Part shown: positions 15,139 through 35,898 of the stretch, piece after piece
Numbering within the stretch: the stretch's first letter is position 1
How the letters are laid out: the number at the start of each line of letters is the position of its first letter
Source: Ignavibacteriota bacterium
Lineage (GTDB): Bacteria; Bacteroidota; Ignavibacteria; UBA10030; SZUA-254
Assembly (NCBI GenBank): GCA_016212665.1
Contig: JACREZ010000034.1
Span: 1-64,000 of the forward strand
Direction of reading: 5' to 3'
DNA length: 64,000 nucleotides
The notes under the pieces: generated by a model
What the model saw: the letters and a program-made list of their open reading frames with translations, nothing else
What the model was told of the DNA's origin: nothing
Databases searched by the model: none
Program-made: the position numbers and the translations under genes

Positions 15139-15270
15139 AGGGGGCTGTCTTAAAGTGTAATCGCTTTAGATGTCATTCCTGCGAAAGCAGGAATCCATTT
15201 CGCTTTCGGTGATTCTGGATTCCCGTTGGCACGGGAATGACAAGAGCAAAGACTTTTGATACAGCCCCTT
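15139..15270. repeat. MITE-like nested inverted repeat
   Basis: The element is bounded by GGGGCTGT (15141-15148) and its complement ACAGCCCC (15261-15268), with similarity continuing inward (CTTAAAGT/ACTTTTGAT). Inside lie hairpins ATTCCTGC-gaaa-GCAGGAAT and ATTCCCGT-tggc-ACGGGAAT, and the inner block begins GTCATTCC and ends GGAATGAC, so two inverted repeats are nested. It has no coding capacity. The inner GTCATTCC...TGGATTCCCG block resembles a widespread bacterial interspersed repeat type. Confidence 0.7.
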
Positions 15271-18353: not shown

Positions 18354-18438
18354 TTATACAGAAAATAAATTAACCATTTCACCAATGACCAAGTAACCAA
18401 CACAAATAGGAGGACTCCATGTCCAAACATAATCTTTC
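18354..18438. repeat. 85-bp direct repeat, left copy
   Basis: This copy is nearly identical to 19458-19542. It begins TTATACAGAA, contains TTAACCATTTCACCAATGACC and an AGGAGGACTCC ribosome binding site, and ends in the codons for MSKHNLS. The two copies flank the PIN toxin cassette. See the direct repeat at 19458-19542. Confidence 0.9.
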
Positions 18439-19470: not shown

Positions 19471-19542
19471 CTAATTAACCATTTCACCAATGACCAATTA
19501 ACCAACACAACAGGAGGACTCCATGTCCAAACATAATCTTTC
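19458..19542. repeat. 85-bp direct repeat, right copy
   Basis: Near-identical to 18354-18438, in the same orientation, separated by about 1.02 kb that holds the antitoxin/PIN/small-gene cassette. It includes the ribosome binding site (CAGGAGGACTCC) and first codons of the 19523 gene. The arrangement fits insertion of the cassette with duplication of the target, or a partial tandem duplication of the gene's 5' end. Confidence 0.9.
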
Positions 19543-22500
19543 GTTTAATAATATCGGTAGAGTCCATTTCGCAAATGGACGACATGTAACACAATATGTC
19601 CGATTGAGAATCGGACTCTACGCAACACGTTTGTTGCTGATTGCTCTCTGTTTTCTTCTCACATCACAAATCGCAGAACTCACGGCGCAGGTGGTGAGTG
19701 TTTCTCCTGAAAAACTAATTCACAAAACAGAAAACCTATTACGATATAACAGTATAACAAAGACGTGGAATGCTTACCCCGAAGTAACAATACGTTCTAT
19801 CCAAGAAGTACCATATGATTCATTAATAGCTGCTGATGCAATCCAACAGAGTGACTATGCACGCTGGACTCTTCAAATCGCAGATAGAGTAGAAAGCGCG
19901 ACAACGAACGATGATACTGCAACGGTGGTCGGTGTGTGTGTGGTTGAGCCCAAAGTAATAGGTTATACAGCAAATGGATTTGTTATGGTATTGTATGACA
20001 CAGCATCTAATGATAATGAGTGGAGAGGGCTTTGGGTGCGATGCAACAGCCCGACAGATACTTTGCAAAATATTCTTGACGGGTTCCTCAATGTACAACG
20101 CGGAGATATTGTTCGTATAACTGGGAGACTATCAGAATTCCCGACAGGTAACATGAACAGCATGACCCAGTTCCAACCTATTCCGGGAATTCCCATTGAA
20201 GTCGTTGGTACAATGAACATACCATCTCCTGTTAACAAAATCGACAGTGTTGAACAATTTTATGCCTGCGCATACAATCCAGTCGGTCCTTATTGTACAA
20301 AATATAGCACTGGCGAACGTTATGAGGGAATGTATGTTGAGTTTCATAACTTAACTGTGATTGGATACAGAAATATAAGCGGGAGGAGTGCAATTGAGAT
20401 GGCTGATGCCGAGGGAAATACAATTGTTATGCACGATGCATCAAAGTGGTTTACCGTTACAGGTGCATGGAGAGACCCCAATTCAACATGGTCGTTACCT
20501 CCGGTATTATCAGTCATTGATAGAATCAGTGGAATCATTCTACAAATTTCCGGTGGGGCGGGAACTTTGGGATATGTTATAGCGCCTATATATCCATGTG
20601 ATGTCGGGCAGTGTAATTCATGGCCTGGGTTGATTACGGGTACGAAATTCTATGATTTGGATGCAGATAGTATAAAAGACCCCGATGAAGTTGGTTTAGC
20701 AAATTGGCGCATTAATATCACTGGAAAAACATCAACCTATACTCTGACAAATTCAAACGGATATTATCAATTTTCAAATCTGGATTCCGGGAATTATACA
20801 GTCAGCGAAACACAGCAATCCGGTTGGTCACAAACGTTTCCACTCAATCAATCTTATTCTCTGTTCCTAGATTACAATGATACTATTAACAATATTGATT
20901 TTGGTAATACTCGCTTAAATTCTATAACGATTAGAAAATTTGAGGATAGAGATGGACTATTTTCAACACGGGGAGACCGAATAAGTTACCCGTGGAGTTT
21001 ACGTCTGTACCGTGATTCCGTATCATCAGAATCTTTAGTAGCATCATCGGATACTTCTGAGAGTATTAGCGTAAATGATTTATCGGCAGGTGTGTATATC
21101 GCGTCAGAGGCAGATAGCTTAGACTGGAAACCTTTAGGGAAAATAAGAAATAGAATTCCAATCGAACAACCGACAACACTAGACACAATACTACTCAGTG
21201 ATGATCAATCAACTGTGGTTGATTTTATCAATGTCCATCCAAGAATTGAAGTCAGGAAATTTTATTATACATATCATATAGACTCCACTACATCTTTGAA
21301 TCCTATACCATGGCATTTGACTCTTTACAAAGGGATGATACATGAGGATTCAATCGTCGCTCAGGTAGTGTCGGCAGAATCATTGGAGGTATTTAATGCT
21401 CCATCCGGATTGTATCTCATCAAAGAGGAAGAAAGAGCCGGTTGGGTTAGCATGGGTAAGACCATAAATGGAGGTCCATTCGAATACACTTCAGGAATTG
21501 ATACGGTGAATTACATCAACGGAGAGATATACAAAATTGGATTCCGGAATTCCAAGTTGGGAAGTATTAGCGGCGTTGTGTTTAATGACCTGAATGGCGA
21601 TGGCATGAAAGATAGTACGGAAACAGGATTATCAAATTGGTTAATTCGATTATCGGGCTCAAAAAATGATTCTACCGTTACCGATGCCAACGGACTATAT
21701 ACTTTTTCAAATCTTGATACCGGAACATACATCGTATATGAAGATATCAAATATCAATGGAAACAAACTCTTCCATCTTCCCCTGGAGTGTATTCAATAA
21801 CAATTTTTAATAGTGGTCAGGATTTCGTTGATATGAATTTTGGGAATCATCGGACTCAGAAAGTTAAACTTTCTTTTACTGTAAGTAACTTCTCTGGAAC
21901 GAGTAATCGTACACTATTTTTTGGCATTCGACAGGGTGCCTCCTACGGAATCTGGGAAGTTTATCCTCAAGCAACAACAATAGATTCAACAGAAGGTGAG
22001 TACGAAGTTCCGCCGCCGCTTTCACAGGCATTCGATGCGCGCTTTGTGGATGCTCGAGGAGGTGAAGAACGCTTCGGTACCGGTTCGTGGATAGACATCA
22101 GAAATTTTGAAGATGCCGCTCAGGTTGATACGTATAAAGTCAGCGTTCATCCGGGAAGTTCGGGTTATCCAATTATTCTGAGATGGTCGGGAGAGCAAAT
22201 TTCAAACGCCTACAAGGGTACTGTGAATTTTCTCGATGCATTCGGCGGGACAACTGACTTGAAATCAACGGATAGTCTTGTCATTACAAACAATCAAATC
22301 AGTTATCTCTTACTTATCACAAAACAACCCGCGCTTCCGTTTGTGTATGGCAAAGGATGGAATCTTGTCTCTGTTCCATATCTGGTTACGGATGGGAGAA
22401 AAAATATTTTATTCCCAAGTGCATCCTCTCATGCGTTTACATTCAGCGCGCTTGGCGGCTATGAAGTTCAAGACACGATGGAAAACGGAAAAGGATATTG

Positions 22501-24209: not shown

Positions 24210-25905
24210 AAAAGTCACAAACGATGAAAACGAAGGTTTGAGGTGATGAGGCGGGAGTGTTGCAACCACACCGCGTACACAATCGCCTGTACCACTAAGC
24301 AAAGTGAAACAAAAAATTTGATGAACGTTTGAATGTTCATCACAAAGAAAATAGCAGCTATCCAACTTGCACTCGTATCACTTCGTCGCGCCATGATCTT
24401 ATCTAATCTATAACTCCGTTTTCCCGTTCCAAACTTCCCTTCAATATGATTGCGGAGATTACTTACCGCCTTTGTCACCGCTTGTCCCTCTCCATCGTTT
24501 CTCGGTCGTCCCAACGGTGTTCCTCCATAGATGATGTTGTGTGTTTTCATGTAGGCACGATTCTCTCTCGTCCCATATTTCTTGTCTGCCAACACTACCT
24601 GAGGATAATATCCATATGTCAGTTTGTACTCTTCTATTTGTGCCGGTAAATCTGATGCCTCGTGATACGAATCCCATGCAATGCGATGAATACGACTAAA
24701 TCCATTCATCACACTGCAGGATACTTGCGCACCAAATTCTGTTGGCGCTTTTGCTTTCCCCCGTACAATCGGTCGTACATGCGGCTGTGCGATACTCACG
24801 ATGCGGTCATCGATCCGATGCGTCTTCGTCGTGTACATTTCCTGTTGTTGTCGGTAAAGTTCTTGCACCACCCACAACGTTGTTTGCCCGGCTGAGGAAC
24901 ATGGTTCAGGAACGACATCCAACAACGCATGAATCGTCTTGATGTTTCTCTTCACGTATCCCAATTGTTTCCGTATTGCTTTTCGTATCGTTTTCCCGCT
25001 CCTCTTCTTCATTTTGGCATATTTCAAATAGTCCTTTCTCGCCTTCCTCCGATACGTGCGCGGTTTTGTTGTTCTCCTCTCCACAGGGAGGGAAGCATAC
25101 AACTCATCAATAAGTGCTTCCGTTTTTTCTCGTGCACGGTTCAGCAATTCCATGTCGGTCGGATAGGCTATATCGGCAGGAGCGACGGTAAGATCGGCAA
25201 TCAACAGTCCACGATTCGTCACCGCTTCTTGTCGTACCGCCTCTTCATTCGACGACGATAAACTCGTTGACAATCCCGTTTTCTCTGAGCCACCATCTGC
25301 ACGCGTGGGAGAAGTGGGGAACGACGGTCCATCGGTTCCTTCATCAGATGAGGATTCACGCACTGTTCCGACATCAGTCGAAAACCTCTCGGCAAGGTGA
25401 AGGAGTTCCAGTACCATTGCATCGAACTCGTGTTCGCCGAGGCGTTTGCGTATGGTCACCAACAAGGAGGGATCAAATACCCATTCGTATTGATAGTGAC
25501 GAAGCCCAAGAAAGTATTGTTGATACACATTTTCTTGGATCGAACGAAGAGTGTCTTCATCACTCAATCCTTCTTTATGTTTGATGATGAGCGCTCCGAT
25601 CACGATGCGTGCGTCTGTTGCGGGACGTCCTTGAGTTGCCGACATCGTACGATAGTACACCGCCGCGAGACGATCCCACGGGAGAGCATGTGCGAGTTGT
25701 ATCCAACGGTTTTCCCGGGGAAGGTTCATTTCGAACGGTGTGCGAAATTCTTCAAATGTGAGTTGATGTTGGCTTTGATAACGAATCATTGATATTGCTC
25801 TGCAAGGGTTTTGGTATCTTTTTCCATAATATCGTGCATTTCTCCTTTCCAATACAACTGTAAGTTCTTCATTTATATGGTGTTCATACTTTTTCAGTGA
25901 ACCCT
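24198..25905 (-). mobile_element. complete IS5/IS1182-like insertion sequence
   Basis: A 1708-bp element is bounded by perfect 18-bp inverted repeats: AGGGTTCACTGAAAAAGT at 24198-24215 and its complement ACTTTTTCAGTGAACCCT at 25888-25905. It is flanked by a 4-bp target duplication AGTT (24194-24197 and 25906-25909). It carries one transposase gene on the minus strand. Intact ends, an intact transposase and exact target duplication indicate a recent insertion. Confidence 0.93.
24215..25789 (-). CDS. DDE transposase of the IS5/IS1182 type
   Basis: The 524-residue transposase has an InsH/DUF772-type N-terminal domain (NRWIQLAHALPWDRLAAVYY...GRPATDARIVIGALIIKHKEGLSDEDT...) and a catalytic domain with VLADKKYGTRENRAY (second Asp) and HIEGKFGTGKRSYRLD (final Glu). 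A Ser/Gly-rich linker lies at about residues 155-195. The start is placed at MIRYQSQHQLTFEEF (25789); the frame stays open to 25852 but homology begins here. The stop codon overlaps the inverted repeat by one base. Family assignment (IS5 group versus IS1182) is from motif pattern only. Confidence 0.88.
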   Translation of the reverse strand: MIRYQSQHQLTFEEFRTPFEMNLPRENRWIQLAHALPWDRLAAVYYRTMSATQGRPATDARIVIGALIIKHKEGLSDEDTLRSIQENVYQQYFLGLRHYQYEWVFDPSLLVTIRKRLGEHEFDAMVLELLHLAERFSTDVGTVRESSSDEGTDGPSFPTSPTRADGGSEKTGLSTSLSSSNEEAVRQEAVTNRGLLIADLTVAPADIAYPTDMELLNRAREKTEALIDELYASLPVERRTTKPRTYRRKARKDYLKYAKMKKRSGKTIRKAIRKQLGYVKRNIKTIHALLDVVPEPCSSAGQTTLWVVQELYRQQQEMYTTKTHRIDDRIVSIAQPHVRPIVRGKAKAPTEFGAQVSCSVMNGFSRIHRIAWDSYHEASDLPAQIEEYKLTYGYYPQVVLADKKYGTRENRAYMKTHNIIYGGTPLGRPRNDGEGQAVTKAVSNLRNHIEGKFGTGKRSYRLDKIMARRSDTSASWIAAIFFVMNIQTFIKFFVSLCLVVQAIVYAVWLQHSRLITSNLRFHRL

Positions 25906-25937: not shown

Positions 25938-26014
25938 AGATGGAGTCCACCTTCCCCTCGCTTGCAACACAATTTCAACCTGATTGCTCCTGATAGATAA
26001 GGTGGACTCCATCT
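25938..26014. repeat. GTGGACTCCA inverted-repeat pair
   Basis: AGATGGAGTCCACCTT (25938-25953) and its exact complement AAGGTGGACTCCATCT (25999-26014) are separated by 45 bp. The core GGTGGACTCCA also forms the palindrome inside the gene at 34060-34091. The following stretch (26018-26045, CTTGCATCTTGCATCCTGAATCC) is made of short words. No gene is visible between the insertion sequence and 26098. Confidence 0.75.
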
Positions 26015-26097: not shown

Positions 26098-26562
26098 ATG
26101 TCCACCTTCTCTCTCACCATCAATAACAAGCAGCAGTCGATTGATGTCGAACCTGATATGCCGTTACTCTGGGTTCTGCGCGATGTTCTTGGAATGACCG
26201 GAACAAAATTCGGATGCGGCAGAGCGTTGTGCGGCTCTTGCACCGTTCATGTTGATGGCGAAGCGACTCGCTCGTGCGTTACGCCGGTTGAGTCGGTCGC
26301 GGGAAAATCTGTTCTCACTATCGAAGGATTATCAGCCGACCGTTCACACCCGCTACAACTTGCATGGATTGCGGAAGAAGTTCCGCAGTGCGGCTACTGC
26401 CAGTCGGGACAAATTATGTCGGCGGCGGCATTGCTCAATCAAAAAACAAATCCGACCGACGAAGATATTGACGCGGCAATGGGAATGAACATCTGCCGGT
26501 GCGGAACATACAACAGGATTCGGAAAGCGATTCATCGTGCGGCAAAAGGAGGTGTTCGATGA
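26098..26562 (+). CDS. [2Fe-2S] subunit of a molybdenum hydroxylase (IorA/XdhC-type small subunit)
   Basis: The 154-residue electron-transfer subunit has a plant-type ferredoxin domain with CGRALCGSC...C (about residues 40-60) and a second [2Fe-2S] domain with CGYCQSGQ and NICRCGTY (about 100-140). This is the classical two-cluster pattern of aldehyde oxidase, xanthine dehydrogenase and isoquinoline 1-oxidoreductase small subunits. The GGAACTCC box precedes the ATG. Its stop overlaps the start of the large subunit (ATGA). No FAD subunit gene is adjacent, which favours the isoquinoline-oxidoreductase/aldehyde-dehydrogenase type that passes electrons to a cytochrome. Confidence 0.93.
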
Positions 26563-33235: not shown

Positions 33236-34042
33236 AAGAACGATTATCTTCTCGGCGTAAGCGAAACCGAACTTGAGAGACTTCGATTTCAACATAGCGT
33301 CTGGAAAAAAGTAACGGATGATTTCTTCACACGGCTCAAAGTTGGGAATGGCTGGAAGTGTCTGGATGTCGGTGCGGGACCGGGATTTGTGGCGATGGAT
33401 TTGCGCGAGCGTGTCGGTGAAACAGGAGAAGTGTCGGTTCTGGAACCATCAAAATATTATTTGGATTGGTTCCGGAACGATTCAGCGAAGAGCGGATGGT
33501 CAAACATCAAGTTTATTGAAGGAACCGCGGAACATTCTCAACTTCCTTCTTCTTATTTCGATTTTATCTTTGCGCGATGGGTGATTGGCTTTGTCCCTGA
33601 TGCGGAAAAATTTTTACTGAATTTACTTCGCTCACTCAAACCCGGCGGAATCATCGCCTTACAGGATTATCAGTACGAGGGATTGTCTCTCTATCCGAAT
33701 TCCGGTGCGTTTCAACATGCGGCGGATGCTGTACGCGGATATTGGCGTGCCGGCGGCGGTGACCCGTATGTTGCATCCCGCATTCCTATAATTTTTCGTC
33801 AACAGAACATCAACCTTATTGAATACAAACCCAATTGTCTTGCCGGCGGACCGGAAAGCAATGTGATGGAATGGGCGCACAGATTTTTCTCAACTCATTT
33901 TCAGGCGATGGTTGATAAAGGTGTGATTACCCAAACTGAAGGTGATGCAATGCTGGCAGATTGGCTCGCTCACCGGGAAAATCCGGACACAATGTTTTTC
34001 TCTCCACTTGTTGTTGATATTGCCGGAGTGAAACCGAAATGA
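33224..34042 (+). CDS. class I SAM-dependent methyltransferase
   Basis: The 272-residue cytoplasmic enzyme has SAM-binding motif I LDVGAGPGFVAMDL (about 45-58), motif II-like VSVLEPSKYYLDWF, motif III FDFIFARWVIGFV and LLRSLKPGGIIALQDY. No substrate-specific domain is recognised, so the target (small molecule, lipid or protein) is unknown. The gene overlaps the M61 peptidase gene by 4 bp (ATGA), suggesting an operon. The first six codons derive from a word repeat, so the true start may be less certain; no strong ribosome binding site is visible. Confidence 0.86.
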   Translation: MTNDKNDYLLGVSETELERLRFQHSVWKKVTDDFFTRLKVGNGWKCLDVGAGPGFVAMDLRERVGETGEVSVLEPSKYYLDWFRNDSAKSGWSNIKFIEGTAEHSQLPSSYFDFIFARWVIGFVPDAEKFLLNLLRSLKPGGIIALQDYQYEGLSLYPNSGAFQHAADAVRGYWRAGGGDPYVASRIPIIFRQQNINLIEYKPNCLAGGPESNVMEWAHRFFSTHFQAMVDKGVITQTEGDAMLADWLAHRENPDTMFFSPLVVDIAGVKPK

Positions 34043-35898
34043 AATCTTTCGTTAGTCTCAGGTGGACTCCACCTGCGGGTGGAGTCCACCTTCTCCGAAG
34101 TGTCATTACTCTTTTATTATTCTGTTCACTCATGACCGAAGCCAAACCAACCGAAGTTCACTACACGCTTGGCATGTCCAAGCCGCACACGCATTTCTTT
34201 GAAGTCGAAGTTACGCTCAATAATCTTTCCCTGAGCGATTCACATCTCGATTTCGTTCTTCCCGTCTGGAGACCGGGACGGTACATGGTTCTTGATTTCG
34301 CAGGCGGCGTTCAGGAATTTTCTGCCATCGGCGAGAATAACACGGCGCTTACATGGAAGAAGACCGATAAAACAACGTGGCGCGTAGAAACAAAAGGAAA
34401 CAATCGCGTAACCATTCGTTACAAAGTTTTCGCAAACGAATTCAACCAACGGACACGCGGGCTCAATGACGAACATGGTTTTGTTGACGGAACCGCCGTC
34501 TTCATGTATGTGGAAAAATTTCGTGCGCTCCCCGTTCGGTTGAACGTCATTCCGTTTGCAAACTGGCATGTTATTACTGGACTTGAGTCCGCTGAAGGAA
34601 CAACAAATGAATTCACTGCGCCAAACTACGATGTGTTTGTTGATTGTCCTCTTGAAATAGGAACGCAAAAAGATTTTCCGTTCGAAGTAGAAGGAGTTCC
34701 GCACGTGCTGAGCATTGCAGGCGAAGGGAACTGGAACGCCGACACGCTCATCAAGGACATCACGAAGATTGTGCAAACCACGAAAGCGCTGTGGGGAGAA
34801 TTTCCGTACAAACGGTATGTGTTTCTCGTTCACTGCTCGCCGACTTCGGGCGGTGGAACAGAGCATCTCAATTCGGTCATTATGGGGACGCGCCCGTTCA
34901 TCTTCAACAATCCCGAAACGTATCGCGGGTTTCTCGGCTTGGTGGCGCACGAATATTTCCACACGTGGAACGTGAAGCAACTCCGCCCGAACGGAATGCA
35001 CCCGTATGATTACCTGAAAGAAAACTACACAGACGAACTCTGGATTTCGGAAGGAACAACTTCATACTATGATAATTTGATGCTTGTGCGGGCGGGCTAT
35101 CAAACCACCCAAAAATATTTAGACGACCTTGCGAACGGAATTCAATCCGACCGACAGCGACCGGGAAACAACGTGCAATCTATTGTCGAGTCGAGTTTTG
35201 ATTCGTGGATAAAATTCTGGCGCGGCACTCAACAGTCATTCAACACGGAAACAGATTACTACGGCAAAGGTTCGCTCGTCAGTTTGCTTCTTGATTTGGA
35301 ACTTCGTCAGCGTACATCAAACAACACTTCGCTTGACGATGTGCTGAGGACAATGTACAAACGATTTCCTCTCTCCGGCAATGGTTACACCGTGAAAGAT
35401 TTTCAAACAACAGCAGAAGAATTATCAAACAGCAACTTGAAAGAATTTTTCACTGACTATGTTTTCGGGACAAAACCGCTTCCGTGGGAACAAACTCTTG
35501 CGTACGCCGGACTTGAACTGAAACTGAAAGACACCGTTGCCAAACCGTGGATTGGTTTTTCTCTTTCCGAATCAAACGGAAGAACAACCGTTTCTCAAAT
35601 CTCCGCCGGTTCACCCGCGTACAACGCGGGCGTTGATGTCGGAGACGAACTTGTTGCCATGAATGGATTCCGCATCCGTCCCGCCGACCTTTCGGAGCGA
35701 GTGAAAGATTTTGCAATGGGTGAGAGTGTCACGCTTACCATCATGCGTGGCGATAAATTGAGAACAATTGAAGTGAAGGTAGAAGCGGGACCGTTGTTGA
35801 GTTACCGGTTACAGAAAGTGAAAGAGGCGACGGAGTTGCAGAAGGAGATTTTTGAGAAGTGGCTTGCAACTTCATGGGATGAATCCTCGAAAAAATAG
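34039..35898 (+). CDS. M61-family (glycyl aminopeptidase-like) metallopeptidase with PDZ domain
   Basis: The 619-residue exported peptidase has an N-terminal beta domain (HYTLGMSKPHTHFFEVEVTL, about 36-200), then the catalytic zinc motif HEYFH (His304, Glu305, His308) in 'LVAHEYFHTWNVKQLRP', with Glu338 in WISEGTTSYY as likely third ligand. A C-terminal PDZ domain (about 485-585; VSQISAGSPAYNAGVDVGDEL) follows. The signal peptide (VITLLLFCSLMTEA) is preceded by residues RWTPPAGGVHL encoded by a perfect 14-bp-arm palindrome (34060-34091), which looks inserted. The start overlaps the methyltransferase stop. Confidence 0.9.
   Translation: MKSFVSLRWTPPAGGVHLLRSVITLLLFCSLMTEAKPTEVHYTLGMSKPHTHFFEVEVTLNNLSLSDSHLDFVLPVWRPGRYMVLDFAGGVQEFSAIGENNTALTWKKTDKTTWRVETKGNNRVTIRYKVFANEFNQRTRGLNDEHGFVDGTAVFMYVEKFRALPVRLNVIPFANWHVITGLESAEGTTNEFTAPNYDVFVDCPLEIGTQKDFPFEVEGVPHVLSIAGEGNWNADTLIKDITKIVQTTKALWGEFPYKRYVFLVHCSPTSGGGTEHLNSVIMGTRPFIFNNPETYRGFLGLVAHEYFHTWNVKQLRPNGMHPYDYLKENYTDELWISEGTTSYYDNLMLVRAGYQTTQKYLDDLANGIQSDRQRPGNNVQSIVESSFDSWIKFWRGTQQSFNTETDYYGKGSLVSLLLDLELRQRTSNNTSLDDVLRTMYKRFPLSGNGYTVKDFQTTAEELSNSNLKEFFTDYVFGTKPLPWEQTLAYAGLELKLKDTVAKPWIGFSLSESNGRTTVSQISAGSPAYNAGVDVGDELVAMNGFRIRPADLSERVKDFAMGESVTLTIMRGDKLRTIEVKVEAGPLLSYRLQKVKEATELQKEIFEKWLATSWDESSKK
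34060..34091. repeat. GTGGACTCCAC palindrome inside a signal-peptide region
   Basis: Perfect arms AGGTGGACTCCACC and GGTGGAGTCCACCT are separated by TGCG. It is translated as about 11 residues near the N-terminus of the M61 peptidase. The core matches the intergenic inverted repeat at 25938-26014. Confidence 0.88.

Follow-up and report, generated by a model that had tools for sequence, protein, structure and literature searches.

The gene for an M61 peptidase in this Ignavibacteriota bacterium contains a perfect palindrome close to its start codon, which raises the question of what the palindrome is and how a coding sequence came to carry it. The gene (34039..35898, plus strand) was identified by its Peptidase_M61_N, Peptidase_M61 and PDZ matches and its translation, and is located in the 64,000-nucleotide stretch of DNA that was analysed, referred to here as the window. 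The palindrome at 34060-34091 lies inside the coding sequence. Its arms, 34060-34073 (AGGTGGACTCCACC) and 34078-34091 (GGTGGAGTCCACCT), are 14 nucleotides each, 100% complementary and separated by a 4-nucleotide loop, TGCG. The reading frame from the ATG at 34039 gives MKSFVSLRWTPPAGGVHLLRSVITLLLFCSLMTEAK, in which residues 8-18, RWTPPAGGVHL, are encoded by the palindrome and are N-terminal to the hydrophobic core. Both the arms and the frame agree with the first-pass annotation, which had described a perfect palindrome with 14-bp arms read as these eleven residues ahead of the core. The ATG overlaps the TGA of the preceding gene, and the relatives G001, G002 and G010 have an ATGA in the corresponding position. 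The sequence between the palindrome and the core contains no in-frame ATG, GTG or TTG, so any product that includes this core must also include the residues of the palindrome, barring a rare start codon. The palindrome should thus be translated, provided that the protein is exported.

Neither the element nor its residues are found in other M61 orthologues: comparison of the N-termini, which had been proposed as a check, showed the eleven residues to be absent from all 16 others read. (Locus L116 was replaced in this set by L201, which shows the same gene, and weaker M61 matches were left out.) In the congener G001, the M61 N-terminus is short (MKFTLCVLFIIMLSMQIDAK). That of the present gene has 16 additional codons, and a 32-bp element accounts for only part of this difference. 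A flush direct repeat, TCTC, is found at the M61 copy. In G002 (L102 / L066), a different and unrelated repeat, GTCATACCTGCGAAAGCAAG...TTGCGTGGGAATGACA, occupies the same N-terminal place and is also open in frame. It is a palindrome of the GTCATACCTGCGAAAGC... type, and a similar repeat is found in the window at 15171-15242. The copy in the present genome would lengthen the n-region of the signal peptide, with a probably neutral effect.

The M61 palindrome consists of two inverted 15-bp units (34060-34074 and 34077-34091). The unit, AGRTGGASTCCAYCT, is itself an odd palindrome and is found at 42 places in the 3.9 Mb of the genome with at most one mismatch, compared with one place for the reversed control. 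These places group into 26 sites, including two single units, L133 and L137, that may be chance. An exact 11-mer search of the genome gave 24 matches, compared with none for its reversed control. In the window, GGTGGACTCCA has eight matches with at most one mismatch where 0.67 are expected, and none of 100 shuffles reached eight. Two of the eight, GGAGGACTCCA at 18409 and 19513, lie at neither of the elements in the window. The shuffle and reversed-sequence controls rule out chance or simple composition as the source of the repeat, and the genome-wide 11-mer search rules out copies confined to M61. The proposal of a dispersed repeat family has therefore held: copies were found beyond M61, and no orthologue was found with the same residues and no palindrome.

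The units are arranged in two main layouts. In the compact layout, two inverted units are separated by GC or CGC, giving 32 or 33 bp in total. In the wide layout, two inverted units with at most two mismatches each are 62-65 bp apart and oriented with AGATGG on the outside. At a few sites the loop is of intermediate length, for a total of 42-53 bp. RNA folding of two compact forms gave -27.9 and -25.9 kcal/mol. No stop codon is present in any of the six frames in the four variants translated.

The window also contains a wide copy, at 25938-26014, with units at 25938-25952 and 26000-26014 and a 47-nucleotide spacer. The first-pass annotation had assigned this pair the same core as the M61 palindrome, and the two units are indeed shared. 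The inverted pair extends to 19 nucleotides with 95% complementarity (25935-25953/25999-26017). The copy is intergenic, flanked on one side by a DDE transposase gene (DUF772 / DDE_Tnp_1_2; 24215..25852, minus strand) and on the other by a gene for a 2Fe-2S protein (Fer2/Fer2_2; 26098..26562, plus strand). We saw no sign that the gene at 24215..25852 belongs to the repeat. In the six stretches compared, synteny did not extend to this copy.

The wide copies measure 77-80 bp in eight copies of this genome and 80-81 bp in genome G016. The spacers of the eight copies look unlike, yet their mean pairwise score is higher than those of all 200 dinucleotide-shuffled sets. The score also exceeds the shuffles among five G016 spacers and between the G016 spacers and those of this genome. 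The spacers are also more alike than all 300 sets of GC-matched neighboring stretches. (For the spacer test, the three near-identical L068 copies were represented by a single one, and L071 was left out since it covers the same region as L069.) BLAST aligned two pairs of wide copies at 72-73% identity over 86-87 bp including the conserved ends, with E values of 8e-7 and 1e-5, both in reversed orientation; a third pair aligned at 70% over 83 bp, again including the ends, with an E value of 0.2. The spacers alone account for 26, 31 and 30 identities of 49 in the three pairs. The shuffle tests rule out unrelated spacers and indicate a distant similarity. With its related spacers and conserved ends, the wide form probably represents an ancient element of the MITE-like kind.

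The near-constant length, the conserved ends and the diverged yet related interior are also what a classical MITE of a DDE transposon would show, with the wide copies as the element and its terminal inverted repeats 15-19 bp long. We consider this a real possibility, if one somewhat short of an even chance. It would lead one to expect a target-site duplication, but none is consistent over the 26 sites: flush direct repeats of at least 3 bp are found at two, TCTC at the M61 copy and AAC at one copy in a GH5-like gene. It does not account for the compact copies without an interior, which are equally common. A parent transposase gene should be bounded by AGATGGAGTCCACYT / ARGTGGACTCCATCT, and no autonomous transposon with these ends was noticed in the loci read. 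We prefer a more general description, a REP-like or MITE-like repeat without a tag. The wide copies may represent an old form of about 80 bp in which the ends are conserved and the interior has drifted, and the compact copies may be its two ends brought together, a direction of descent that we infer.

In G016, two different genes for YafQ/HigB-like toxins are interspersed with three wide elements that are about 92% alike (L068, 1349-2970), and several other wide copies of that genome are located near contig ends. An integron-like cassette reading of the L068 array was set aside, as attC ends are not visible.

Positions of the copies relative to genes further constrain their interpretation. ORFs of at least 120 codons were called mechanically. 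By these calls, 19 of the 26 sites fall between genes. At 14 of the 19, the copy begins no more than 25 bp after a stop codon, compared with 23% of 2,500 random intergenic placements in the same loci (binomial tail 5e-6). Without the single unit L133 the figure is 13 of 18. The wide copy in the window is one of the five exceptions. Another wide copy is located upstream of rimP-nusA, where the congener has a different upstream gene, so no clean empty site is readable there. In 14 rimP upstream regions (L214-L225, L228-L229), a hairpin is followed by a T-rich run; it has the form AGTCCC..GGGACT in 12 and AGCCCG..CGGGCT in two, and looks like a conserved leader terminator.

Placement at gene 3' ends, a strong hairpin and the T-run behind the C9 copy are what one would see if the copies were merely intrinsic terminators, alike through selection on the hairpin. 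This is most improbable. Sequence identity beyond that of a stem is kept at unlinked sites, copies are found in-frame inside genes, and most flanks have no long T-tract behind the hairpin. Alternatively, the unit could be the binding site of a regulator or a nucleoid protein, a 15-bp odd palindrome whose pairs, 62-66 bp apart, would form looped or wrapped operators. The near-perfect dyad symmetry, ends far better kept than the spacers and the near-constant spacing in the wide copies of this genome and G016 are consistent with it. However, 14 of the 19 intergenic copies are behind genes, others are within coding sequences, the distribution is patchy (11 of 391 genomes) and occupancy differs between congeners. 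We regard a binding site as very unlikely.

Four copies in this genome are in-frame: one in M61, two in a GH5-like gene and one in HpnE. Three further sites, L132, L137 and L140, were called coding by the mechanical rule, but these calls are doubtful and were excluded. The first-pass annotation had also suggested a preference for signal-peptide regions. This was not borne out: among the four in-frame copies, only that in M61 is in such a region, and the intergenic copies are mostly at gene 3' ends. In the HpnE reading frame (TIGR03467), residues 298-306 are SPPAGGLQL. The GH5-like protein (PF00150, 1058 residues) contains GGLHLAGGVHL at 159-169 and DGLHLAGGVHL at 937-947.

The clearest case of insertion is in the GH31 gene of the congener G002. 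This gene contains a 33-bp stretch of 11 codons, and the same columns are gapped in the 92%-identical gene here and in four further orthologues. A fifth, L209, has three residues in the gap. The eight closest of 12 loci were aligned, and row L205 was unreadable.

The two GH5 sites behave differently. Both are common to this genome and G002, are 2.3 kb apart in the gene and are located in stretches that vary among relatives. At the first site, G001 has about the same length; at the second there is a net gain of about 5-6 residues. Neither presents a clean gap, so replacement instead of insertion is possible there. The loop is CGC at both sites here, and TCCCGATATATCGGGA or TCCCGAAATATCGGGA in G002 (palindrome TCCCGA(T/A)ATATCGGGA). 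A hairpin close to the G002 loops, CCCGATTTATCGGG, occurs by itself at four loci in other genomes (L072, L129, L265 and L279), and the window contains no match to CCCGATNNATCGGG with at most one mismatch. That two sites are altered alike in G002 suggests either that one hairpin was copied onto the other or that one palindrome has entered another. A single gene with two such sites does not prove that hairpin copies rewrite one another, and we offer this as a speculative and rather improbable reading. If it is true, intragenic palindromes would swap loops by hairpin-templated conversion, leading to concerted evolution of the translated peptides, and a palindrome of one family could be hosted inside one of another family. 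The joint loop replacement is the part of the analysis that a specialist might find surprising.

Of the 391 genomes of the class, 11 contain the exact 15-mer, and these belong to several families; the reversed control is found in three genomes with one match each. Single-copy genomes in this count, such as G089, may be chance. Viral contigs gave no exact match to one compact and one wide pattern, and phages gave no match. Ten plasmid records were returned, but in none did the match span 80% of the query, and the lowest E value was 0.7. At the sensitivity of these searches, the repeat is on no phage or viral contig and not convincingly on any plasmid. A search of Rfam with six sources returned only 23S and 5S rRNA; the 3' end of the 23S rRNA and the 5S rRNA occupy positions 1-676 of the window. 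A literature search with sequence strings of the family matched only a vertebrate promoter paper.

The layouts also resemble those of REPs. The repeat could be a REP proper, mobilized as a single-stranded hairpin by a resident RAYT, an HUH Y1 transposase. The genome has at least eight Y1_Tnp genes, seven plus one on C21, and the compact and dimer layouts resemble the REP dimers described in PMC3733652. The C21 gene is RAYT-like (NF047646, 61.5 bits, below the cut-off of 80) and ends 21 bp from a wide copy. Since the copies favor gene ends, this proximity may be coincidence. The C21 gene, however, carries its own GTAG palindrome within its ORF. Moreover, only one of 63 Y1 loci, some of which may show the same gene twice, has the unit in its flanks with at most one mismatch, and on one side only. 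Genome G066 has three exact units and no Y1_Tnp match. At L268, one single unit with two mismatches is found near a Y1 gene. We attempted to name the RAYT from flanking units, but one of 63 loci at this threshold is not enough to name the enzyme. The link to a RAYT is weak, and we doubt that the repeat is a REP proper, although less strongly than we doubt a binding site.

The first-pass annotation had considered the palindrome unrelated in sequence to a family framed by GTAG. This holds in part. As a rule the tag is absent: GTAG/CTAC is found at the edge of two of the 26 sites, which also speaks against a REP proper, and a degenerate copy, C18, contains GTAG as well. On the other hand, a GTAG-framed inverted pair at 19557..19621 (GTAGAGTCCATTT...), which we take as that other family, shares the core GAGTCCA with the unit. 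The shared core may be chance or kinship. Like the M61 copy, the pair precedes a hydrophobic N-terminal stretch of an ORF (19523-19660). The GTAG-framed palindromes of this genome, which are found with RAYT genes, differ from the unit in being tagged and located inside RAYT ORFs, where the present unit was not seen.

Several arrangements of palindromes were observed around transposase genes. When 30 loci were scanned by script, 13 of 20 RAYT-like ORFs were found to contain a palindrome at a similar position, GTAG-framed in 11, with a sequence that differs by genome. They include L154 (1776-1803) and loci L155, L160-L163, L166-L168 and L170-L173. In L032 (1143-1936), three copies of TTGCCACTACCTTAAGGTAGTGGCAA surround a Y1 transposase gene, much as in a REPtron. 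In L031 (1969-2776), the alternating palindromes CCCCACGATTTATCGTGGGG and ACCCCATGCTGAAGCATGGGGT recur about every 344 bp next to a Y1 transposase gene.

Taken as a whole, the palindrome is most likely one copy of an untagged REP-like or MITE-like repeat of Ignavibacteria. The copies are dispersed. Most of those between genes directly follow a stop codon, some others are in-frame inside genes, and at two genes a copy is present in one close relative and absent from another. The repeat would be a non-autonomous element that some transposase copies or moves in trans. Most surviving copies would then be behind genes, where a strong mRNA hairpin is harmless or protects the 3' end. A copy landing in-frame at a permissive site, such as the n-region of a signal peptide or a variable loop, would be tolerated as about 11 extra residues, because the variants translated carry no stop codon in six frames.

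Such a repeat has much in common with known systems. PMC3733652 describes untagged REP-like families and intragenic REPs, and expects further untagged families. In it, GTAG and CGTC REPs are described as forming dimers whose spacers can vary in sequence while keeping a similar length. These REPs often lie no more than 20 bp from the 3' end of a gene, and some are located in ORFs, including at N-termini. The present repeat is likewise a dispersed and mostly extragenic palindrome of 20-40 bp. It is also found singly or as inverted pairs whose spacers are short or 20-100 bp long, and is close to gene 3' ends with a minority inside ORFs, including an N-terminus. It differs from REPs in having no GTAG tag as a rule, no demonstrated transposase partner and a low copy number: 42 units at 26 sites are few for a REP family, and PMC2817692 gives more than 100 copies per genome for classical REPs. 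MITEs such as Correia/NEMIS and ERIC (PMC2229807, PMC10969869) share with the wide form its terminal inverted repeats and an interior that hardly varies in length; the wide form differs from them in having no target-site duplication and, in the loci read, no parent element.

In-frame fusions of Rickettsia palindromic elements (RPEs) and MITEs, one partly forming a signal peptide, are described in PMC10969869 and PMC2229807. RPEs are also palindromic, open in frame and inserted into unrelated protein genes. By that description they are set apart from the present repeat by their length, about 105-150 bp compared with 32-33 bp here, and by their phylum. PARCELs (PMC2996958) are translated palindromic repeats too, but consist of 25-residue tandem units. 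Translated palindromic repeats are thus already known from other bacteria, and it is this sequence family that is new.

With this family, Ignavibacteria join the bacteria that have tiny palindromic repeats in-frame within apparently working genes. In the GH31 gene, two close species differ cleanly by 11 codons, and at the M61 N-terminus two of the three genus members compared carry repeats that are unrelated to each other. Tolerated, translated mobile palindromes thereby become testable outside Rickettsia.
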